Assembly (NCBI RefSeq): GCF_016428875.1
Contig: NZ_JAELTO010000001.1
Coordinates: forward strand, 1 to 64,000
Source of the DNA: Xylophilus sp. ASV27
GTDB lineage: Bacteria > Pseudomonadota > Gammaproteobacteria > Burkholderiales > Burkholderiaceae_C
Reading direction: 5' to 3'
Length of the DNA stretch: 64,000 nt
The notes under the pieces were generated by a model. The model saw only the letters and a program-made list of their open reading frames with translations. It was not told the origin of the DNA and made no database searches. The position numbers and the translations under genes were made by a program. This document shows positions 28,122-61,662 of this stretch, in pieces. The first letter of the stretch is position 1. The number at the start of each line of letters is the position of its first letter.

Positions 28122-28442
28122 TCATTCCAGCGCCACATACACCCGCCCCGACTCGATCTTCACCGGATAGGTTCGCAGGCCCTGCGTGAGCGGCGCGCAC
28201 AGCGCCTTGCCGCTGCGGATGTCGAAGCGGCCCTGGTGCAGCGGGCATTCGATCTCGTGGCCTTCCAGGAAGCCGTCGCACAGGCGGCCGGGGCCGTGGG
28301 TGCAGGCGTTGGCGGTGGCCCAGACCTCGTCGCCCAGGCGGTAGAAGGCGACCTCGTGGCCGCCCTCGAAGTCCAGCGCCATCACCTCGCCGGGAAACAG
28401 TTCGTCCAGCGCGGCGGCGTCGGTCCAGGTCATGGTGCCCAT
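28122..28442 (-). CDS. Rieske 2Fe-2S ferredoxin
   Basis: A 106-residue soluble Rieske protein that carries electrons to a ring-hydroxylating oxygenase. Cluster ligands are in CTHGPG (about residue 47) and CPLHQGRFD (about 66), the spacing of NagAb/NahAb-type ferredoxins. It is the last gene of the minus-strand oxygenase locus that starts at 31149. No flavin reductase is present in this locus, so electrons must come from a reductase elsewhere. Confidence 0.92.
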   Translation of the reverse strand: MGTMTWTDAAALDELFPGEVMALDFEGGHEVAFYRLGDEVWATANACTHGPGRLCDGFLEGHEIECPLHQGRFDIRSGKALCAPLTQGLRTYPVKIESGRVYVALE

Positions 28443-29893: not shown

Positions 29894-31149
29894 GCCTCCA
29901 TCACCGCGCGCCAGTAGCGGTACATGCCGCGAATCAGTGTCTCGGTCACCATGTGGTCGGCGTCGCCGACCTCGCGCCCGCCCAGCTCGGCCAGCGCGCG
30001 GTGGCCGGGCCGGCTCTCGAAGCTCTGCTGCGAGAACTCGATCACCTCGCCGTCGTCGGCCGAGACGAAGCCCGCGGGCCCGAACAGATTGGCCTGGCGC
30101 AGGCGGCGCTGGGTCATGTCCTCGGTGTCGTCCTCGAAGCCGAAGTGCGTCCAGACAAAGTCGAAGGCGCCATGGCCCACCGGCTGGATGTGGCGGGTCG
30201 AGACGCTGTTGACTTGCTGCTGCAAAACCACGCTCGGGAACAGCGTCATCATCACGGCCGTCGGGCCGCCCCACCAAGGCTCAGGCACGATGTCCAGAAA
30301 GCGCGGGTCTTTCAGCTGCAGGCTCTCCTTGAAGCTCGACACCTGCGTCACCTGCGCGGCCCGGCCGGCGCTGCCGCGCGTGGAAATCATGGCCGCGTGG
30401 CGGCCGTGCGCGTCCATCTTCAGCTCGGACTTGTTGTCGGCGCGCCAGAGCCCGAAGGTGACGAACCAGGTGTGCAGCAGGCCCGGGTGATACGGGTCCT
30501 TGATGTTCTCCTGCATCAGCTTCCAGTTGCCCGGAATGCGCTGGCGGTTGTAGCCCAGGATCTTCAGCCGCCGGCCGTTGAAAAGCCGGTCGAAGTAGCC
30601 CAGGATCACCGGGCCCATGAAGTCCTCCAGCGGCTCCACGTCGTGGTCGAAAGACGCAAACACCACGCCACCGCGCACAGCCACCTTGAGCTTGTTCAGG
30701 CCATGCTCGGCGATATTGAAGTCTGCCGGCATGCCGCCGTTGACCTTGCCGTCTTGCTTCACGCCACGACGAAAAGGCACGCCTTGCAGGTCGCCCTCCA
30801 GCGTGTAGCTCCACTGGTGGTAGGGGCAGACGAACTGCGCAGCGTTGCCATGCCGCGCGCGGCAGAAGCGCATGCCGCGGTGGGCGCAGACGTTCTCCAC
30901 CACGTGCACCGCGCCATCGGCGGCGCGCGTCATGATCACCGAGCGCTCGCCGATCACGCTGCGCTTGAAGTCGCCCGGCTGCGGGATCTCGGCCTCCAGG
31001 CCCACGTAGCACCAGTGCGCGCGGTAGAAGAAGCGCTCCAGCTCGCGCTGGTGCTGCTCCTGGCCGGTGTAGGCCATGAAGGGGATGCGGCTGGTGCGCC
31101 CGTCTTCCCAGCGCAGGGCCGGGGGGAACACGGTGCTCGGCTCGGTCAT
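29890..31149 (-). CDS. Aromatic ring-hydroxylating oxygenase, alpha subunit (NagG-like)
   Basis: Catalytic subunit of 419 residues. The Rieske cluster is in CAHRGMRFC and CPYHQWSY (about residues 88-112), and the mononuclear iron ligands are in [11 protein letters not shown] near 220. The long C-terminal stretch ([42 protein letters not shown]) reminds me of salicylate 5-hydroxylase NagG and its relatives. That assignment is from memory and moderate. First gene of the minus-strand operon; a LysR gene diverges from it at 31260. Confidence 0.92.
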
Positions 31150-32169: not shown

Positions 32170-32262
32170 CACCCCAGGCTTCGCGCTCCGCGTCTTCGCC
32201 AACCCCCTTCGAGAGGGTACCGCCGGCGGCCTGGCAAAGCCAGTTCCGAGGCGGTTCACTTC
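32170..32262 (+). repeat. Multi-hairpin repeat family 2, copy a (diverged)
   Basis: Begins CACCCCAGGCTTCGCGCT directly after the LysR stop, continues GTCTTCGCC, a CCCCTTCGAGAGGG hairpin, then CTGGCAAAGCCAGTTCC. The same sequence of blocks occurs at 42936, 50363, 51702, 61367 and 61542. Confidence 0.7.
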
Positions 32263-42935: not shown

Positions 42936-43068
42936 AGCCCAAAGCCTCCGAAGGCCACGGAGCCGGCCATGCGCAAACATCCGCGGAGCCGGCTCCGCCG
43001 GTCCGCTGGATGTGCCCCCGACAAGGGGGTGGGCGAAGCGACACGCAGTGCGCGAAGCCTGGGGGTGT
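42936..43068 (-). repeat. Multi-hairpin repeat family 2, copy b
   Basis: Reverse orientation: on the minus strand it starts CACCCCCAGGCTTCGCGC five bases after the DctM stop, continues through a CCCCCTTGTCGGGGG hairpin and TCCGCGGATG, and ends near GGCCTTCGGAGGC. It separates dctM from the hydrolase and binding-protein genes. Confidence 0.75.
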
Positions 43069-50562: not shown

Positions 50563-51681
50563 TCAGTCCTCGCCCCAGACCTCGCGCGCGGTTTCGATCA
50601 CCAGGCGCAGCTTGGCGCGCTGGGCCTCCACCGCGATGTCGTTGCCGTGAACGGTGCTGCTGAAGCCGCACTGCGGCGACAGCGCCAATTGCTCCAGCGG
50701 CGCGTAGCGGGCGGCGCCGTCGATGCGGCGCTTGAGCTCGTCCTTGTCCTCCAGCGCGCCGAACTTGGTGGTGACCAGGCCCAGCACCACCATCTTGCCC
50801 TTGGGCAGGTAGCGCAGGGGCTTGAAGTCGCCGCTGCGGTGGTCGTCGTATTCGAGGAAGTAGGCGTCCAGGTCCATCTCCTGCAGCAGGGCCTCGGCCA
50901 CGGGCTCGTAGTTGCCGGCGGCGGCGTGGGTGCTCTTGAAGTTGCCGCGGCACAGGTGCATGGCCAGGGTCATGCCGCCGGGCTTCTGCGCGACCACCTT
51001 GTTGATGAAGGCGGCGTAGCGGTGCGGCAGTTCGTTGGGGTCGTCGCCGCGCTGGCGGGCTGCTTCGCGCATCTTCTCGTCGCACAGATAGGCCAGGTTG
51101 GTGTCGTCCATCTGCACGTAGGTGCAGCCGGCGGCCGCCAGGCTGCGCAGCTCGTCGCCATAGGCCTGGGCCACGTCGTCGTAGAAGGCCGGGTCCAGCT
51201 CGGGGTAGTGCTGCTGGCTGATGCCCGCGCGGCCGCCGCGAAAGTGCAGCATGGTGGGCGAGGGGATGGTGACCTTGGGCGTGCTGCCGGCCGACACCTG
51301 GCTCTTGAGGTACCGGAAGTCGGCCAGTTGGATGTCCTTGACGTGGCGAACCTTGTCCACCACGCGCATCACCGGCGGTGCCAGTTCCTGCGTGCCGTCG
51401 GCCTTCTGGATGGTCACGGGGATGTCGGTCTTGACGCCGCCGATCTGCTCCAGGAAGTCGATGTGGAAGTAGGTGCGGCGGAACTCGCCGTCGGTGATGC
51501 TCTTCAAGCCCACGTCTTCCTGGAACTTCACGATCTCGGTGATCGCCTTGTCTTCGACCGCGCGCAACTGCTCGGCGTTGATCGTGCCCTGGGCCTTCTG
51601 CTCGCGCGCCTCCAGCAGGTAGCGGGGGCGCAGGAAGCTGCCAACGTGGTCGTAGCGGGCGGGCAGGACGGGGTGGGTCAT
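50563..51681 (-). CDS. MetE C-terminal-domain-like methyltransferase (cobalamin-independent methionine synthase family)
   Basis: 372 residues forming only the UROD/MetE-type catalytic barrel; full MetE has about 750. The start reads PARYDHVGSFLRPRYLLEAR. Candidate zinc ligands are in LAMHLCRGNF (His, Cys) and SPQCGFSST (Cys), with TYVQMDDTNLAYL and LDAYFLEYD between. Such short homologues act on methionine or in side pathways (YxjG/YxjH type); the methyl donor is not evident. ATG 51681 follows GGAGATTCC. The stop is followed at once by a family-2 repeat. Confidence 0.88.
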   Translation of the reverse strand: MTHPVLPARYDHVGSFLRPRYLLEAREQKAQGTINAEQLRAVEDKAITEIVKFQEDVGLKSITDGEFRRTYFHIDFLEQIGGVKTDIPVTIQKADGTQELAPPVMRVVDKVRHVKDIQLADFRYLKSQVSAGSTPKVTIPSPTMLHFRGGRAGISQQHYPELDPAFYDDVAQAYGDELRSLAAAGCTYVQMDDTNLAYLCDEKMREAARQRGDDPNELPHRYAAFINKVVAQKPGGMTLAMHLCRGNFKSTHAAAGNYEPVAEALLQEMDLDAYFLEYDDHRSGDFKPLRYLPKGKMVVLGLVTTKFGALEDKDELKRRIDGAARYAPLEQLALSPQCGFSSTVHGNDIAVEAQRAKLRLVIETAREVWGED

Positions 51682-51701
51682 GGAATCTCCAGGTAGTTGC
51701 G

Positions 51702-51829
51702 CACCCCCAGTCTTCGCGCACGTCATGTCGCTACGCCAACCCCCTTGCAGGGGGCACCGCCTGCGGCCTGGCAAAGCCAGTTCCGCGGCGGTTTGCGCTT
51801 GGCCTGCTTCGCGGCTTTTGGAGCTGAGC
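51702..51829 (+). repeat. Multi-hairpin repeat family 2, copy d
   Basis: CACCCCCAGTCTTCGCGC, a short insertion, the CCCCCTTGCAGGGGG palindrome, CTGGCAAAGCCAGTTCCGC and GGCCTGCTTCGCGGC. Unlike the other copies it does not follow a stop codon on its own strand. Confidence 0.75.
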
Positions 51830-51986: not shown

Positions 51987-53081
51987 ATGAACACGCCCAC
52001 GCCGTCCTTTCCGCTGAATGCCTGGTACGCCGCCGCCTATGACGTCGACGTCGGGCGCGCCCTGCTGCCACGCACCGTCTGCAAGCAGAAAATGGTGCTC
52101 CACCGCACCGCCGCCGGCCAGATCGCCGCGCTCGAAGACGCCTGCTGGCAACGGCTGGTGCCCTTGTCGATGGGGCGGCTGGAGGGCGACGAGGTGGTCT
52201 GCGGCTACCACGGGCTGGTCTACAACGCCCAGGGCCGCTGCACCCAGATGCCGAGCCAGGAGACGCTCAACCCCTCGGCCTGCGTGCGCGCATTCCCGGT
52301 GGTGGAGCGGCACCGCTTGGCCTGGGTCTGGCCCGGCGATCCGGCCAGGGCCGACCCGGCGCTGATCCCCGACATGCACTGGAACGACGATCCGGCCTGG
52401 GCCGGCGACGGCAAGATGATCCGCGTGCACTGCGACTACCGGCTGGTGGTCGACAACCTGATGGACCTGACGCACGAGACCTTCGTGCACGGCTGCTCCA
52501 TCGGCAAGCGCGCGGTGGCCGAGGCGCCCTTCGTCGCCACCCACGGCGAGCGCAGCGCCACCGTCACGCGCTGGATGGACAACATCGATGCGCCGCCGTT
52601 CTGGGCCGGCCAGATCCGCCATGCGCGTGGCTACACCGGCAAGGTGGACCGCTGGCAGATCATCCGCTTCGATGCGCAGTGCACCGTCAACATCGACGTC
52701 GGCGTGGCCGAGGCGGGCGGCGGCGCGGTGCCGCGCGGCGACGATCCGGGCGACCGCAGCCGCGGCGTCAACGGCTACGTGCTCAACACGATCACGCCCG
52801 AAACCGACAGGACCTGCCTGTATTTCTGGGCCTTCGCGCGCAACTACTGCCTGGGCGAGCAGCGCCTGACGCACGAACTGCGCGAAGGCGTGGCCGGCAT
52901 CTTCCGCGAGGACGAACTGGTGCTCGAAGCCCAGCAGAGGGCCATGGACGAGCACCCGGACCGCGAGTTCCACAACCTCAACATCGACGCCGGCGCGCTG
53001 TGGGCGCGCAGGCTGATCGATGCCATGGTGGCCAGGGAGCGTCCCGCAACCCCGGTCATCCCCATCCGCCGTGCGGCCTGA
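51987..53081 (+). CDS. Vanillate demethylase-like Rieske oxygenase with substituted cluster ligand
   Basis: A VanA-type oxygenase of 364 residues. The Rieske motif, normally C-X-H...C-X2-H, reads Cys53-Trp-Gln55 ... Cys72-Gly-Tyr-His75 ([10 protein letters not shown] and [11 protein letters not shown]). The first cluster histidine is therefore Gln, encoded CAA at 52149-52151; CAC or CAT would restore it. The mononuclear iron ligands look normal ([15 protein letters not shown], near residue 155). Without that His the cluster would probably not assemble or would have an altered potential. In an operon with a GntR regulator and a reductase that lacks its NAD domain, so the system may be inactive or repurposed; a base-call error is also possible. 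Confidence 0.88.
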
Positions 53082-53829
53082 CCCCGCCCCGAAACCAGAC
53101 GACGCCGCCGGCTCCAGCCAGGCCGTCAAGGCGCAGTTGCGGCTGCGCGAGATGGTGCTGGCCGGCGAGCTGCCCGGCGGTGCGCGCATTGCCGAGCTGG
53201 CGCTGGTGGAGAAGCTGGGCGTGTCGCGCACGCCGATCCGCGCCGCGCTGATGCGGCTGGAGCAGGAAGGACTGCTGCAGGCGCTGCCCAATGGCGGCTA
53301 CGCGGTCAAGACCTTTTCCGAGCGCGACGTGGCCGAGGCGATCGAGCTGCGGGGCACGGTCGAGGGCCTGGCCGCGCGCCTGGCGGCCGAGCGCGGCGTG
53401 GCCGCGGTGGTGCTGGCCGAGGCGCGCCAGTGCCTGCGCCAGATCGATGCGCTGCTGCAGCCGCCGGTGCTGGGCGACGACGCCTTCACGCGCTACGTGG
53501 CGCTGAATGCGCAGTTCCATGCGCTGCTCGGCGAAATGGCCGACAGCCCGTTCCTCACGCGCGAACTCGATCGCATCACGCACCTGCCGTTCGCCTCGCC
53601 TTCGGGCTTCGTCGTGGTGCAGGCGCATTCGCCCGCCGCGCGCGACATGCTGGTGGTGGCGCAGGACCAGCACCAGCAGGTGCTCGACGCCATCGAGCGG
53701 CGCGAAGGCGGCAGGGCCGAAGCCATCATGCGCGAGCACTCGCGCATCGCCCAGCGCAACCTGCGCGAGGCGGTGACCCGCCCGCAGGTGCACCAGATGC
53801 CCGGCGTGCAGCTGATCCGCCGCCGCTGA
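53071..53829 (+). CDS. GntR-family regulator with FCD ligand domain
   Basis: 252 residues from GTG 53071, which overlaps the oxygenase stop by 11 nt. The winged helix spans about residues 10-80 ([38 protein letters not shown]), and the all-helical FCD domain follows ([19 protein letters not shown], then [13 protein letters not shown] and [15 protein letters not shown] with the metal-binding histidines). It probably represses the operon and responds to an aromatic acid. A TGTATACA palindrome lies upstream of the operon. Confidence 0.9.
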
Positions 53830-53860: not shown

Positions 53861-54340
53861 ATGCGTACCCATGCCCACTGGAGCGAGGCCGTCGTCACGG
53901 CCGTGCGCGAGCTGACCCCGAGCGTGCGCGAGATCCTGCTGCGCCCCGCGCACGACGGCGCCGCCGGCTGCGGCGACTGGGCGCCCGGCAGCGACCTGCA
54001 GGTGCTGGTGCTGGTCGGCGGCCGGCCGCAGACCCGCTCCTATTCGCTGGTCGGCGCGCCCGACGACGGCGCCTGGCGCATCGCCGTCAAGCGGCTGGAC
54101 GACGGCCGTGGCGGCTCGCTCGCCATGTTCGAAGGCGCCGGCGTGCAGACGCTGTCGGACTGCCGCCGTGGCGAATGCGGCCTGTGCGCCATGGACGTGC
54201 TGGCGCTGGAGGGCGAGATCGACCACCGCGACGTGTTCCCGAGCGAGCACGAGAAGGCCGAAAACCGCCGCATCTGCGCCTGCGTCTCGCGCGTGGTCGG
54301 GGCGGTGACGCTGGATTCGGCCTTTCGCCCCGATGACTGA
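53861..54340 (+). CDS. Shortened oxygenase reductase: flavin and 2Fe-2S parts without NAD domain
   Basis: VanB-type reductases have about 315 residues in the order flavin, NAD, 2Fe-2S. This one has 159. The flavin part ends normally (TRSYSLVGAPDDGAWRIAVK, then RLDDGRGGS). It continues directly into the plant-type 2Fe-2S part (LAMFEGAGVQTLSDCR, CRRGECGLC, RRICACVSR). The missing piece, about 155 residues, is the NAD-binding domain, removed in frame. Either it is a non-functional deletion product or a flavodoxin-like electron carrier needing another donor. All four cluster cysteines remain. Confidence 0.88.
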   Translation: MRTHAHWSEAVVTAVRELTPSVREILLRPAHDGAAGCGDWAPGSDLQVLVLVGGRPQTRSYSLVGAPDDGAWRIAVKRLDDGRGGSLAMFEGAGVQTLSDCRRGECGLCAMDVLALEGEIDHRDVFPSEHEKAENRRICACVSRVVGAVTLDSAFRPDD

Positions 54341-54370: not shown

Positions 54371-54434
54371 CGATACCCGGCCCTGAAGCGACGAGAATCA
54401 GAGGCCTTTGGCCCACACTTTGGAGACCCGACCC

Positions 54435-55613
54435 ATGCACAAGAGAGCCTTCCTCCGCACCGCCGCGTCCGCCGCCGTGATCGCGCTGGCCACGCTGCCG
54501 GCGCTGGCGCAGACGACGCCCTTCAAGATCGGCCTGATCCTGCCCATGACCGGCCAGGCCGCCAGCACCGGCCGCCAGATCGAGGCCGCCGCGCGCCTGT
54601 ACATGGCGCAGAACGGCGACACCGTGGCCGGCCGCAAGGTCGAGCTGATCATCAAGGACGACACCGGCCTGCCCGACGTCAGCAAGCGCATTGCCCAGGA
54701 ACTGGTGGTCAACGACAAGGTCGGCGTGCTGGCCGGCTTCGGCCTCACGCCGCTGGCGCTGGCCGTGGCGCTGATCGCCACGCAGTCCAAGACGCCCGAG
54801 ATCGTCATGGCCGCGGCCACCTCCAGCATCACCGAGGCCTCGCCCTTCGTGGTGCGCTCGAGCTTCACGCTGCCGCAGGTGACCGTCTCCATGGCCGACT
54901 GGGCGCCGAAGAACGGCATCAAGAAAGTCGTCACCCTGGTGTCGGACTACGGCCCGGGCCTGGACGCCGAGAAGTTCTTCAAGGAGCGCTTCACCGCCAA
55001 TGGCGGCGAGGTGACCGAATCCCTGCGCGTACCGCTGCGCAACCCGGATTTCGCGCCCTTCCTGCAGAAGGTGCGCGACGCCAGGCCCGATGCGCTGTTC
55101 GTCTTCGTGCCCTCGGGCAACGGCGCGGCGGTCATGAAGCAGTTCCTGGAGCGCGGCCTGGACAAGGCCGGCATCCGGATGATCGCCACCGGCGACGTCA
55201 CGGACGACGATCAGCTCAACGACATGGGCGACGGCGCGCTCGGCGTGGTCACCTCGCACCACTACTCCGCCGCGCACCCGTCGGAGGTGAACCGGAAATT
55301 CGTCGCCGCCTTCGAGCAGGCCAACAAGGGCATGCGCCCCAACTTCATGGCCGTGGGCGGCTATGACGGCATGCACCTGATCTACCAGGCGCTCAAGGCC
55401 ACCGATGGCAAGGGCGACGGCCCGGCGCTGCTGGCGGCCATGAAGGGCCTGAGCTTCGAGAGCCCGCGCGGCCCGGTCACCATCGACCCGCAGACACGCG
55501 ACGTGATCCAGGACGTCTACCTGCGCAAGGTTGAGAAGAAGGACGGCAAGCTCTACAACGTCGAATTTGATTCGATCAAGCAGGTCAAGGATCCAGCAAA
55601 AGCAGGCAAGTAA
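54435..55613 (+). CDS. Liv-type ABC importer, substrate-binding protein
   Basis: A periplasmic type I binding protein of 392 residues with a signal peptide (AVIALATLPALAQ). Landmarks: KIGLILPMTGQAASTGRQIE, VELIIKDDTGLPDVSKR and VVTLVSDYGPGLDAEKFF. Such proteins with Liv-type permeases in aromatic-degradation loci usually bind aromatic or short carboxylic acids rather than leucine. ATG 54435 follows TGGAGA. First gene of the five-gene importer set; a 169-bp palindromic element separates it from the permease. Confidence 0.92.
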   Translation: MHKRAFLRTAASAAVIALATLPALAQTTPFKIGLILPMTGQAASTGRQIEAAARLYMAQNGDTVAGRKVELIIKDDTGLPDVSKRIAQELVVNDKVGVLAGFGLTPLALAVALIATQSKTPEIVMAAATSSITEASPFVVRSSFTLPQVTVSMADWAPKNGIKKVVTLVSDYGPGLDAEKFFKERFTANGGEVTESLRVPLRNPDFAPFLQKVRDARPDALFVFVPSGNGAAVMKQFLERGLDKAGIRMIATGDVTDDDQLNDMGDGALGVVTSHHYSAAHPSEVNRKFVAAFEQANKGMRPNFMAVGGYDGMHLIYQALKATDGKGDGPALLAAMKGLSFESPRGPVTIDPQTRDVIQDVYLRKVEKKDGKLYNVEFDSIKQVKDPAKAGK

Positions 55614-55631
55614 GGCGGCGCGCGGCAGGGT

Positions 55632-55800
55632 TTAAGGCAACGCTGAACAAGTCCCTCGCGTGTCGCGCATCCCTGCTGTGGGCGGTCTGCGGCGTTGCAA
55701 ATCCTCGCCATAGCTGCGGCTATGGCTGCGGTTTGCGCCTTGCATCCCATCCCACACCAGGGCGCGCGCCACCACGCGGACTTATTCAGCGTTACCTTAA
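55632..55800. repeat. 169-bp palindromic element B
   Basis: The ends are 23-bp inverted repeats matching at 21 positions (55632-55654 and 55778-55800). The left end reads TTAAGGCAACGCTGAAC and the right end closes GTTACCTTAA. The flanking arms are imperfect inverted repeats, and the centre is GCCATAGC-TGCG-GCTATGGC (55707-55726). The design parallels element A at 13270-13537, but the sequence is different. It lies between the binding-protein and permease genes. No transposase or convincing ORF inside. Confidence 0.85.
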
Positions 55801-55879
55801 GCGCCGCCGTACCATGCCGAATTCCGGTTGCGCCCTTGGGCCCATGGTGGGCAAGGGCGCTTGTTTTTCCGTCAGCACC

Positions 55880-56752
55880 ATGCTCACCATACTTTTCGAC
55901 GGCATCGCCTACGGCATGCTGCTGTTCGTGCTTGCGGTCGGGCTGGCTGTGACGCTGGGGCTGATGAACTTCATCAACCTGGCGCATGGCGCCTTTGCCA
56001 TGGCGGGGGGCTACATCACGGTGCTGGCCATGCAGCGCCTGGGCGTGCCCTTCCTGGCCTGCCTGCCGCTGGCCTTCGTGCTGACGGCGGCCTTGGGCGC
56101 CCTGCTGGAGTGCACGCTGTACCGGCCCATGTACAAGAAGCCGCACCTGGACCAGGTGATGTTCTCCATCGGGCTGGCCTTCATGGCCGTGGCGGCGGTG
56201 GACTACTTCGTCGGCGGCTCGCAGCAGAACGTGCAGATACCGCAGTGGCTGCGCGGGCGCACCGAGATCGGCGAGGGCGCGCTGCTGCTGGGCATGGGCC
56301 ACTACCGGCTGTTCATCATCGCCATCTGTGCGGTGCTGACCGTGGTGCTGCAACTGCTGCTGTCCAGGACCCGCTTCGGCAGCCGCCTGCGCGCCGCGGT
56401 GGACGACCCGCGCGTGGCCGCGGGCCTGGGCATCAACGTCAACGTGGTGTTCCTGCTGACCTTCGCCATGGGCTCGGGCCTGGCCGGCCTGGGCGGCGCG
56501 CTGGGCGCCGAGATCCTGGGGCTGGACCCGACCTTCCCTCTCAAGTACATGATCTACTTCCTGATCGTGGTGGCCGTGGGCGGCACCTCTTCCATCACCG
56601 GCCCGCTGGCAGCCGCGCTGCTGCTGGGCATTGCCGACGTGGCCGGCAAATACTACATCCCGAAGATGGGGGCCTTCACGGTCTACCTGCTGATGATCCT
56701 GATCCTGCTCTGGCGCCCGCAAGGCCTGTTCACCCGTGGGGGCCGCCGCTGA
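55880..56752 (+). CDS. livH: Liv-type ABC importer, permease LivH
   Basis: An inner-membrane permease of 290 residues with about eight helices. LivH landmarks: GLMNFINLAHGAFAMAGGY, YRPMYKKPHLDQVMFSIG and AVGGTSSITGPLAAALLLG. ATG 55880 is 79 nt past the palindromic element; an in-frame frame upstream runs through that element and is not credible. Its stop overlaps the livM start. Confidence 0.94.
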   Translation: MLTILFDGIAYGMLLFVLAVGLAVTLGLMNFINLAHGAFAMAGGYITVLAMQRLGVPFLACLPLAFVLTAALGALLECTLYRPMYKKPHLDQVMFSIGLAFMAVAAVDYFVGGSQQNVQIPQWLRGRTEIGEGALLLGMGHYRLFIIAICAVLTVVLQLLLSRTRFGSRLRAAVDDPRVAAGLGINVNVVFLLTFAMGSGLAGLGGALGAEILGLDPTFPLKYMIYFLIVVAVGGTSSITGPLAAALLLGIADVAGKYYIPKMGAFTVYLLMILILLWRPQGLFTRGGRR

Positions 56753-57732
56753 TGGACGCGCCACGCTACCTGGCGGCATTGCGTGCCGGTTCGCGCCCTC
56801 GCGCGTGGGAATTCGTGTTGTGGGCGCTGGCCTTTGCCGCGCCGCTGCTGGTGCCGCAGCATGCGCTGATGGTGAACGAGATCGCCATCGTCGCGCTGTT
56901 CGCGGTGTCGCTGGACCTGATCCTGGGCTACACCGGCATCGTCTCGCTGGGCCATGCGGGCTTCTTCGGCTTTGGCGCTTACGTCGCGGCGCTGTTCGCC
57001 AAGCACGTCATGCCCGACCCCACCGTGGGCCTGCTGGTGGCCATGGCCGCGACGGCGCTGCTGGGCGCGGTGGCCAGCCTCACCATCCTGCGCGGCAGCG
57101 ACCTGACCCGGCTCATGGTCACGCTGGGCACGGCGCTGCTGCTGCTGGAACTCGCCAACAAGCTCGACTGGCTCACCGGCGGCGCCGACGGCCTGCAGGG
57201 CGTGGTGCTGGGCCCGGTGCTGGGCCTGTTCGACTTCGACCTGTACGGCCGCACGGCGGCCTGGTATTCGCTCAGCGTGTTCCTGCTGCTATTCGTGCTG
57301 ATGCGCCGCATCGTGCATTCGCCCTTCGGCGCCACGCTGATGGCGATCCGCGACAACCGCCTGCGCGCCTCGGCCATCGGCATCCCCGTGGTGTCGCGGC
57401 TGGCCGTGGTCTACACCGTGGCGGCGGCCATCGCGGGCGCCGCCGGCGCGCTGCTGTCGCAGACCACGGGCTTTGCCTCGCTCGACGTGCTGGCCTTCGA
57501 CCGCTCGGCCGACGTGCTGCTGATGCTGGTCATCGGCGGCATCGGCTGGCTCTATGGCGGCATTGCCGGCGCCATCGTGTTCAAGGTGCTGCAGGACAGC
57601 CTATCGTCCATCACGCCCCAGTACTGGATGTTCTGGATCGGCCTGATCCTGGTGCTGCTGGTGCTGGTCGGCCGCGACCGCCTGCTGCGGCCGCAGACCT
57701 GGTTCCGCGGAGCGAAGGGGACCAAGGCATGA
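56752..57732 (+). CDS. livM: Liv-type ABC importer, permease LivM
   Basis: The second permease subunit, 326 residues. Landmarks: SLDLILGYTGIVSLGHAGFF, SPFGATLMAIRDNRLRASAI and LLMLVIGGIGWLYGGIAGA. The ATG overlaps the livH stop (TGATG), and the stop overlaps livG, so livHMGF are tightly coupled. Confidence 0.94.
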   Translation: MDAPRYLAALRAGSRPRAWEFVLWALAFAAPLLVPQHALMVNEIAIVALFAVSLDLILGYTGIVSLGHAGFFGFGAYVAALFAKHVMPDPTVGLLVAMAATALLGAVASLTILRGSDLTRLMVTLGTALLLLELANKLDWLTGGADGLQGVVLGPVLGLFDFDLYGRTAAWYSLSVFLLLFVLMRRIVHSPFGATLMAIRDNRLRASAIGIPVVSRLAVVYTVAAAIAGAAGALLSQTTGFASLDVLAFDRSADVLLMLVIGGIGWLYGGIAGAIVFKVLQDSLSSITPQYWMFWIGLILVLLVLVGRDRLLRPQTWFRGAKGTKA

Positions 57733-58514
57733 GCGCGGTACTTTCGGCCAAGGGCCTGGTGATGCGCTTTGGCGGCATCGTCGCCACCAACGACGTCAGC
57801 CTGGACTTGGAGCACGGCGCGCGCCATGCGCTGATCGGCCCCAACGGCGCGGGCAAGACCACGCTGATCAATATCCTGACCGGCGTGCTGCGGCCCAGCG
57901 AAGGTCGCATTCTGCTGGAGGGCGAGGACGTCACCGCCCTTGCGCCGCACCAGCGCGTGCAGCGCGGCATGGTGCGCACCTTCCAGATCAACCAGTTGTT
58001 CGACAGCATGACGCCGCTGCAGACGCTGGCCCTGGTGGTGGGGCAGCGGCGCGGCCTGGGCGGCAGGTGGTGGCAGCCGGTCGGCAGCGACGCCGGCGTG
58101 GCCGCCCGCGCCGGCGAACTGCTGGAGCAGTTCCGCCTGGCCGAGGTGGCAACGCAGCCCACGCGCCACCTGGCCTATGGCAAGCGCCGCCTGCTGGAAA
58201 TCGCCATCGCCCTGGCCTGCGAGCCGCGCGTGCTGCTGCTGGACGAGCCGGTGGCGGGCGTGCCGGCCGGCGAGCGCGAGGAGCTGCTGCAGACCGTCGC
58301 CGCGCTGCCGGCCGATGTCTCGGTGCTGCTGATCGAGCACGACATGGACCTGGTCTTCAGCTTCGCCAGGCGCATGACGGTGCTGGTCAATGGCACGCTC
58401 CTCACCGAGGGCAGCCCCGAGCAGATCGCCGCCGACCCGCGCGTGAAGGAGGTCTATCTCGGCCACGGCAGCGCGCATGCAGCGCCCCACGGAACGGAAC
58501 TCCAGCATGGCTGA
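57729..58514 (+). CDS. livG: Liv-type ABC importer, ATPase LivG
   Basis: Cytoplasmic ATPase of 261 residues: Walker A GPNGAGKTTL near residue 38, a signature region reading LAYGKRRLLEIA (typical of LivG, where LSGGQ is replaced), Walker B VLLLDEPVAG and the switch His in IEHDMDLVF. Overlaps livM by 4 nt and livF by 8 nt. Confidence 0.94.
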   Translation: MSAVLSAKGLVMRFGGIVATNDVSLDLEHGARHALIGPNGAGKTTLINILTGVLRPSEGRILLEGEDVTALAPHQRVQRGMVRTFQINQLFDSMTPLQTLALVVGQRRGLGGRWWQPVGSDAGVAARAGELLEQFRLAEVATQPTRHLAYGKRRLLEIAIALACEPRVLLLDEPVAGVPAGEREELLQTVAALPADVSVLLIEHDMDLVFSFARRMTVLVNGTLLTEGSPEQIAADPRVKEVYLGHGSAHAAPHGTELQHG

Positions 58515-59211
58515 ACTGCTACGGGTAGAGAGGCTGCGCGCCGGCTACGGCGAGGCGGTGGTGATCGACGGCGTGTCGCTCGGCCTGGGCGCGGGCGAAA
58601 CCCTGGCGCTGCTGGGCCGCAACGGCACCGGCAAGACCACCTTGATCAACACCCTGGCCGGCGCCACCCGGCAGCACGGCGGCAGCATCATGCTCAACGG
58701 CGCGGCCCTGCACACGCTGGCACCGCACCAGCGCGCCGCCGCCGGCATCGGCTGGGTGCCGCAGGAGCGCAACATCTTCAAGTCGCTCACGGTGCACGAG
58801 AACCTGAGCGCCGTCGCGCGCCCCGGCAAGTGGACGCCGGAGGGCGTCTACCGCATGTTCCCGCGCCTGGCCGAGCGCAGGGGCAACCTGGGCAACCAGT
58901 TGTCGGGCGGCGAGCAGCAGATGCTGGCGGTCGGCCGCGCGCTGGTGCTCAACCCGCAACTGCTGCTGCTGGACGAGCCGCTGGAGGGCCTGGCGCCGAT
59001 CCTCGTGGAGGAGCTGCTGCGCGCCATCCGCCGCATCACCCGCGAGGAGCGCCTGGCGGCCATCATCGTGGAGCAGCATCCCCAGGCGATCCTGGCCATC
59101 TCCGACCGGGCCGTGGTGCTCGACCATGGCACGGTGGTGCATGCGGGCACGGCGCGGCAGTTGCGCGATGCGCCCGAACTGCTCGAACGCCTGCTCGGCG
59201 TGTCGCGCTGA
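58507..59211 (+). CDS. livF: Liv-type ABC importer, ATPase LivF
   Basis: The second ATPase, 234 residues: Walker A GRNGTGKTTL near 37, signature LSGGEQQMLAVGRAL, Walker B LLLDEPLEGLAP, switch VEQHPQAILAI. ATG 58507 lies inside the end of livG. With it the importer (binding protein, H, M, G, F) is complete. Confidence 0.94.
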   Translation: MAELLRVERLRAGYGEAVVIDGVSLGLGAGETLALLGRNGTGKTTLINTLAGATRQHGGSIMLNGAALHTLAPHQRAAAGIGWVPQERNIFKSLTVHENLSAVARPGKWTPEGVYRMFPRLAERRGNLGNQLSGGEQQMLAVGRALVLNPQLLLLDEPLEGLAPILVEELLRAIRRITREERLAAIIVEQHPQAILAISDRAVVLDHGTVVHAGTARQLRDAPELLERLLGVSR

Positions 59212-59227
59212 GGCCGGGGCATCGGGG

Positions 59228-60057: not shown

Positions 60058-60138
60058 CGCCCGCGCGGCTCGCCTGGCGTGCAACGGCCGGAAGTTCCGG
60101 CACCCCAGACTGAACCCGACCGAACCTGCCATCCCCGC

Positions 60139-61359
60139 ATGACCCCCACCGACACCGTTCCTACCGACACTCCCCGCCGCCTGCCGCTGCAAGGCATCCG
60201 CGTCGTCGAATTCACCCACATGGTCATGGGACCGACCTGCGGCATGGTGCTGGCCGACATGGGCGCGGAGGTGATCAAGGTCGAACCGATCGAGGGCGAC
60301 CGCACCCGCCATCTGCTGGGGGCGGGTGCGGGCTTCTTCCCCATGTTCAACCGCAACAAGAAGAGCATCGCCCTGGACCTGCGCACGCCCGGCGGGCTGG
60401 AGGTGGCGCACAGGCTCTGCGGCAGCGCAGACGTGGTGACCGAGAACTTCAAGCCCGGCACCATGGCCAAGTACGGGCTGGACTACGCCGCGCTGAGCCG
60501 GGTCCACCCGCGCGTGGTCTACGTCAGCCACAAGGGCTTCCTGCCCGGCCCCTACGAGCACCGCACCGCGCTGGACGAAGTCGTGCAGATGATGGGCGGC
60601 CTGGCCTACATGACCGGCCGCCCGGGCGACCCGCTGCGCGCGGGCAGCAGCGTCAACGACATCATGGGCGGCATGTTCGGCGCCATCGGTGCCCTGGGCG
60701 CGCTGATGCAGCGCATGGGTACGGGCGTGGGGCAGGAGGTGCAGTCCGCGCTGTTCGAGAACAACGTGTTCCTGGTCGGCCAGCACATGCTGCAGTACGC
60801 CATCACCGGCCAGGCCGCCGCGCCCATGCCCGAGCGCATCTCGGCCTGGGCCGTGTACGACGTGTTCACGGTGAAGGACGGCGGCCAGATATTCCTGGCC
60901 GCGGTCAGCGACGCGCAATGGGCCATCTTCTGCGACGCCTTCGGCTTTGCCGACCTCAAGGCCGACCCGGCGCTGGCCACCAACAACCTGCGGGTGCAGG
61001 CGCGTGCCACCATGATGCCCATGCTGCGGGCGCGGCTGGCTGCGTTCACGGTGCAGGAACTGTCGGACATCTTCGAGGCGCGCGGCCTGCCGTTCGCGCC
61101 CATCGCCAAGCCCGAAGAGCTGTTCGACGACCCGCACCTGCAGGCCACCGGCGGCCTGGCCGACATCCGGCTGCCCGACGGCGCGCGCGCGGGGGAAACG
61201 GCCCAGGCCGCGCTGCTGCCCTTCAACATGGCCGGGCAGCGCCTGGGCGTGCGCCTGCAGCCCCCCACGCTGGGCGAGCACACGCACGAACTGCTCGCAG
61301 GGCTGGGCTATGGCGCCGCAGCCATCGCCGCGCTGCGGGAGGGCGGGGCTGTGGGGTGA
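60139..61359 (+). CDS. CaiB/BaiF-family CoA-transferase
   Basis: A class III CoA-transferase moving CoA between carboxylic acids. 406 residues: the N-terminal GIRVVEFTHMVMGPTCGMVL and ADMGAEVIKVEPIEGD, NRNKKSIALDLRTPGG, and the nucleophilic Asp in GSSVNDIMGGMFG near residue 175. ATG 60139 is chosen because the conserved domain begins about 20 residues later. The substrate acid is unknown. Two family-2 repeats follow directly after its stop. Confidence 0.92.
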   Translation: MTPTDTVPTDTPRRLPLQGIRVVEFTHMVMGPTCGMVLADMGAEVIKVEPIEGDRTRHLLGAGAGFFPMFNRNKKSIALDLRTPGGLEVAHRLCGSADVVTENFKPGTMAKYGLDYAALSRVHPRVVYVSHKGFLPGPYEHRTALDEVVQMMGGLAYMTGRPGDPLRAGSSVNDIMGGMFGAIGALGALMQRMGTGVGQEVQSALFENNVFLVGQHMLQYAITGQAAAPMPERISAWAVYDVFTVKDGGQIFLAAVSDAQWAIFCDAFGFADLKADPALATNNLRVQARATMMPMLRARLAAFTVQELSDIFEARGLPFAPIAKPEELFDDPHLQATGGLADIRLPDGARAGETAQAALLPFNMAGQRLGVRLQPPTLGEHTHELLAGLGYGAAAIAALREGGAVG

Positions 61360-61366
61360 GACGGGG

Positions 61367-61479
61367 CCACCCCCAGGCTACGCGCTTCGCGTCTTCGCCT
61401 TCCCCCTCAAGGGGACATATCCTGCGGCCCGGCAAAGCCGGTTCCGCGGATGTCTGCGCATGGCCTGCTCCGCGGCCTT
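61367..61479 (+). repeat. Multi-hairpin repeat family 2, copy e
   Basis: CACCCCCAGGCTACGCGC, CTTCGCGTCTTCGCC, the CCCCTCAAGGGG hairpin, CCGGCAAAGCCGGTTCCGCG and GGCCTGCTCCGCGGCC. Starts within 10 nt of the CoA-transferase stop. Nearly identical to the next copy. Confidence 0.85.
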
Positions 61480-61541: not shown

Positions 61542-61662
61542 ACACCCCCAGGCTACGCGCTTCGCGTCTTCGCCTTCCCCCTCAAGGGGACACATCCTGC
61601 GGCCCGGCAAAGCCGGTTCCGCGGATGTCCGCGCAGGCCAGGCCTGCTCCGCGGTCTTTCGT
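61542..61662 (+). repeat. Multi-hairpin repeat family 2, copy f
   Basis: Same blocks in the same order as copy e with very few differences, about 175 bp downstream in direct orientation, so the pair looks like a recent tandem duplication. Confidence 0.85.

Follow-up and report, generated by a model that had tools for sequence, protein, structure and literature searches.

We analysed a 64,000-nucleotide stretch of DNA from Xylophilus sp. ASV27 (contig NZ_JAELTO010000001.1, positions 1 to 64,000), referred to below as the window. A Rieske oxygenase gene and its neighbours lie in its last quarter:

50563-51774, minus strand: divergent B12-independent methionine-synthase-like gene (Pfam/NCBIfam), apparently intact, 0 deviations at 212 invariant columns
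51987-53081, plus strand: VanA-type Rieske oxygenase gene, 364 aa, ATG start, matches to PF00355 and PF19112
52143-52211, plus strand: Rieske motif C-X-Q-X16-C-X2-H, with ligands C53, C72 and H75 kept
52149-52151, plus strand: codon 55, CAA for Gln; the relatives encode His here with CAC or CAT, and that His is a Rieske [2Fe-2S] cluster ligand
52455-52490, plus strand: presumed mononuclear-iron region from the DdmC alignment, with N157, bridging D160, H163 and H168 (D309 lies farther along)
53020-53829, plus strand: GntR/FCD regulator (Pfam), located between the oxygenase and reductase genes; apparently intact, with no departure at any of 81 invariant columns
53861-54340, plus strand: remnant of a VanB-type reductase, 159 aa (333 aa in the sister), with a 519-bp in-frame deletion and four Fer2 cysteines kept
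54408-59211, plus strand: branched-chain-amino-acid-type ABC transporter (binding protein, permeases, ATPases), open

The oxygenase reading frame carries a Rieske domain (Pfam E 1.6e-14, 54.0 bits against a cut-off of 20.3) followed by a VanA_C domain (E 4.9e-44, 151.2 bits against 23.5), the domain order of the VanA-type family, with both matches above the curated cut-offs. The sole NCBIfam model that matched it reached 90.5 of 600 bits, far under its cut-off. Its nearest solved relative by sequence is the dicamba O-demethylase DdmC (E 8.8e-49), and its nearest named relatives, among the best 80 of 254 loci from a scan of genome contigs, belong to Variovorax. Judged by sequence, the protein is a VanA-type Rieske oxygenase; judged by its cluster motif, it is an incomplete one. 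A protein search of the same genome at E 1e-60 returned this locus only, with no second intact copy. The genome has eight other Rieske loci, and the first-loop C-X-H is present in the four that could be aligned there (L001, L002, L004, L006); this count excludes L003 and L007, whose alignments miss the first loop, and L008 and L009, which gave no alignment. Two more Rieske domains lie within the window itself, at 28164-28427 and 30757-31017 (minus strand). The latter sits in a 458-aa open frame, and both are perhaps parts of another ring-hydroxylating system.

The Rieske cluster motif is Cys-X-His-X15-47-Cys-X2-His (excerpts of PMC12445004 and PMC11138216), and its two His residues bind the iron that cycles between the ferric and ferrous states (excerpt of PMC12445004). 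In the window oxygenase the motif reads C53-W-Q55-R ... C72-G-Y-H75, so that the first His is replaced by Gln55 while the three other ligands are present. This is the motif that the original prediction had read from the DNA, and translation of the reading frame bears it out. Its coordinates, 52143-52210, began correctly and ended one base short: Cys53 occupies 52143-52145 and Cys72 52200-52202, and the last base of His75 is 52211. The CAA codon that it placed at 52149-52151, one third base away from the expected CAC/CAT, is likewise confirmed. At this codon, 82 of the 95 relative loci carry CAC and the other 13 carry CAT. Codon 55 is the only CAA among the 12 Gln codons of the oxygenase frame (8 of 89 in six neighbouring frames), which fits the expectation for a single C-to-A change from CAC.

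Alignment with VanA-type homologues, which the original prediction had named as a check, places His at this site throughout. The four cluster positions are C-H-C-H in all 95 relative loci, which give 89 distinct sequences in the alignment and are 61-88% identical to the oxygenase. This set is made up of the 80 best of the 254 loci from the contig scan and 15 from further genomes, namely the sister and 14 drawn from 199 related genomes. The sister (G005, 88% identity) is the only other match at E 1e-60 among seven genomes of the genus, and it has His55. The same four letters occur in all 30 further, more varied VanA_C loci of the phylum, which are the top scorers among 116 matches listed across 299 genomes, and in a distant match with an internal TAG (L107, 48-49% identity) that is not counted among the 95. 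Three solved-structure alignments, of 13 matched sequences, were examined, and these too have His at the site. No clade of Gln-bearing homologues was found among the 95 relatives, which include the best 80 of 254, or among the 30 VanA_C loci, the best of the 116 matches listed. Across all loci compared, the alignments place Gln55 in this genome alone.

The second metal site is intact in its letters. N157, D160, H163, H168 and D309, which we take to be the mononuclear-iron ligands and the bridging Asp, as in DdmC, are all kept in the window oxygenase and are identical in DdmC and in 95 of 95 relatives.

The gene for the partner reductase has lost a large part of its length. The sister reductase is a 333-aa protein with FAD_binding_6, NAD_binding_1 and Fer2 domains, and DNA alignment to it shows that the window gene lacks 519 bp in one internal, in-frame block, with the junction at about 54128-54131. 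The remnant aligns to sister residues 1-90 and 263-332. The whole of NAD_binding_1 (sister residues 118-211) is gone and Fer2 is matched only from profile position 21, so the remnant lacks the full set of flavin, NAD and [2Fe-2S] domains of such a partner. A reductase match lies on the same strand as the oxygenase in 91 of the 94 relatives other than the sister; in 75 of these the reductase is full length (at least 300 of 333 residues) and free of stops. In another 16 the sequence runs out no more than 44 bases past the match, which leaves its length incomplete; the three loci with no match (L056, L069, L106) have only 205, 1087 and 1485 downstream bases covered, so that absence is not implied. 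Three other long reductase matches occur in the window genome (C215, C457 and C122, 33-38% identical over 313, 280 and 266 of the 333 residues), and these might serve as substitute donors.

The transporter region is 92.8% (54484-55597) and 91.7% (55879-59214) identical to the sister DNA; family searches covered its binding protein alone, and the names permease and ATPase come from reading the sequence. Within the DNA compared, matches to the methionine-synthase-like gene, the GntR regulator and the binding protein were present in 86, 88 and 57 of the 94 relatives besides the sister. The first of these counts suggests a conserved link between the methionine-synthase-like gene and the oxygenase, which perhaps concerns demethylation. 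The GntR regulator has a broken gene on either side, yet none of its polarisable amino-acid changes arose in the window lineage; the transporter or the divergent gene may still be under its control. A CaiB/BaiF-type CoA-transferase lies downstream of the transporter (60079-61359, plus strand); none of the seven NCBIfam models that it matched reaches cut-off. A repeat up to about 90 bp long is dispersed over both strands, at 51695-51788, 32172-32248, 42981-43067, 61421-61449 and 61585-61624. Its pieces are 80-93% identical to the first of these copies (51695-51788), and the sister genome region contains similar ones. We found no description of the oxygenase gene neighbourhood in the literature.

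We compared the rate of change in the window lineage with that in the sister, using columns at least 98% invariant among relatives and amino-acid changes polarised by the relatives. Of 190 such columns in the oxygenase, the window differs at 4 (E21D, H55Q, E229D, P231Q) and the sister at none. Departures in the window and the sister number 0 and 1 for the methionine-synthase-like gene (212 columns), 0 and 0 for GntR (81 columns), 7 and 5 for the binding protein (220 columns, 4 departures being common to both) and 1 and 0 for the reductase remnant (19 columns). Four of the 94 relatives (L106, L103, L105 and L091, 61-76% identical) match or exceed the window oxygenase in the number of odd changes at invariant columns. 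With 18 unpolarised changes set aside, 19 changes in the oxygenase fall on the window lineage and 3 on the sister (binomial p 0.0009). The corresponding counts are 9:5 for the methionine-synthase-like gene, 0:3 for GntR and 7:4 for the binding protein, and these three neighbours, which sum to 16 against 12, differ from the oxygenase with a Fisher p of 0.03. The two reductase pieces, left out of that comparison, have 4:1 and 2:0, a total of 6 against 1.

Maximum-likelihood branches, built from 11-16 selected sequences, are 0.089 for the window and 0.046 for the sister in the oxygenase, 0.052 and 0.049 in the methionine-synthase-like gene, 0 and 0.044 in GntR, and 0.047 and 0.012 in the binding protein. 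By these measures the oxygenase is accelerated in the window lineage; the binding protein is asymmetric too, which means that the excess extends beyond the oxygenase. The dN/dS to the sister is 0.20 for the oxygenase and 0.15, 0.08 and 0.08 for its neighbours. Given this value and the open frame, a loss of constraint, if real, would be recent. The marks of a decaying gene, lesions at essential sites together with a lineage-specific excess of change, are both found here, in H55Q and the reductase deletion on the one hand and in the 19:3 against 16:12 changes on the other, with the oxygenase frame still open and the binding-protein asymmetry as noted.

The closest known systems are the VanA-type two-component oxygenases, of which DdmC is the nearest solved. 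The window shares with them the domain order, the C-X-[H]-X16-C-X2-H spacing, the mononuclear-iron ligands and a nearby VanB-type reductase, but it differs in having Gln for the first cluster His and a reductase without its NAD domain. Also close is a VanA-like oxygenase group that spans Variovorax, Polaromonas, Hydrogenophaga and related bacteria; for the best 80 of 254 loci, protein identity to the window oxygenase is about 76-84%. Unlike the window, that comparison set has His55 in all 95 loci and a complete reductase in the sister and in the 75 relatives that are wholly covered. In such relatives, electrons from NADH pass to the VanB-type reductase, with its flavin and plant-type [2Fe-2S] centre, then to the Rieske cluster of the oxygenase and on to the mononuclear iron that activates O2. 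In the window both links are broken, the oxygenase being without one of its two Rieske His ligands and the reductase without its NAD-binding domain.

We therefore consider it highly likely that the window holds a recently inactivated two-component Rieske oxygenase. Two lesions, absent from the readable relatives, are observed, and so is an oxygenase whose amino-acid sequence has changed faster in the window lineage; loss of the cluster in this protein is inferred. The Gln amide is a poor substitute for a His ligand, and a stable Rieske cluster would probably fail to form. An engineered precedent points the same way: a His87-to-Gln change in mitoNEET abolished the cluster signal, according to a review (excerpt of PMC11138216). 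That variant is like the window oxygenase in its His-to-Gln change at a [2Fe-2S] ligand, but mitoNEET is a 3Cys-1His protein and not a Rieske oxygenase, and its change was made in the laboratory and is not natural. The catalytic iron would then receive no electrons by the dedicated reductase route, and the pathway would no longer be used. Because Gln55 is joined by the loss of the reductase NAD domain, the dedicated electron path is broken twice, and the oxygenase frame at 51987-53081 is probably inactive.

The original prediction had called the enzyme probably dead, with an unusual cluster as the alternative. The first of these gains support from the missing NAD domain, the excess change in the oxygenase and the lack of Gln at the site in the 95 and 30 loci. 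We favour inactivation mainly because of the reductase deletion, which lies outside the coordinates given in that prediction. Several observations count against it: the oxygenase frame is open and its dN/dS is 0.20; the mononuclear-iron ligands and the four Fer2 cysteines are all kept; GntR has no window-derived change and the transporter is open; and the excess in the binding protein, the three other reductases and the four relatives with as many odd changes all weigh on the same side.

Could base 52151 be a sequencing or assembly error in a gene that really encodes His55? The assembly is a draft of 468 contigs, and CAA is one third-base difference away from CAC. However, one miscall would not yield a clean 519-bp in-frame deletion in the reductase along with the other lineage-specific changes, and we regard an error as very improbable.

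It also seems very unlikely that the window oxygenase is a working natural enzyme whose iron has been driven by peroxide or another donor since the reductase was lost, whether it holds a cluster through Gln or does without a Rieske cluster. The first form, in which an unusual Rieske-type cluster is ligated by Gln55 or some other group close by and the oxygenase works with a different reductase, is slightly harder still to credit. All other ligands are kept, the three other long reductase matches could be called upon, and the oxygenase carries a new His at position 39 (Y39H), known from its sequence position only. Against this stand the absence of Gln at the site in the 95 and 30 loci, the broken dedicated reductase and the excess amino-acid change in the oxygenase. 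In addition, we recognised no natural Gln ligand in the literature on His-to-Gln, ligand-mutant or ligand-less Rieske proteins, as represented by the titles and beginnings of abstracts listed. Least probable of all is a cluster-less mononuclear-iron enzyme run by hydrogen peroxide or another reductant, for which His and reductase would be dispensable: the five residues of the iron site are intact and the Rieske enzyme CntA is described as having a peroxide shunt (excerpt of PMC10952381), but the catalytic half would have to be under selection, and two of the four invariant-column changes (E229D and P231Q) fall in the C-terminal domain.

Recent inactivation thus remains our preferred reading, and Gln55 probably counts as one symptom of a dying gene group rather than of new cluster chemistry. 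The partner gene is more telling here than the single residue. If the oxygenase works after all, it would be a natural test of a Rieske oxygenase running without one cluster His.
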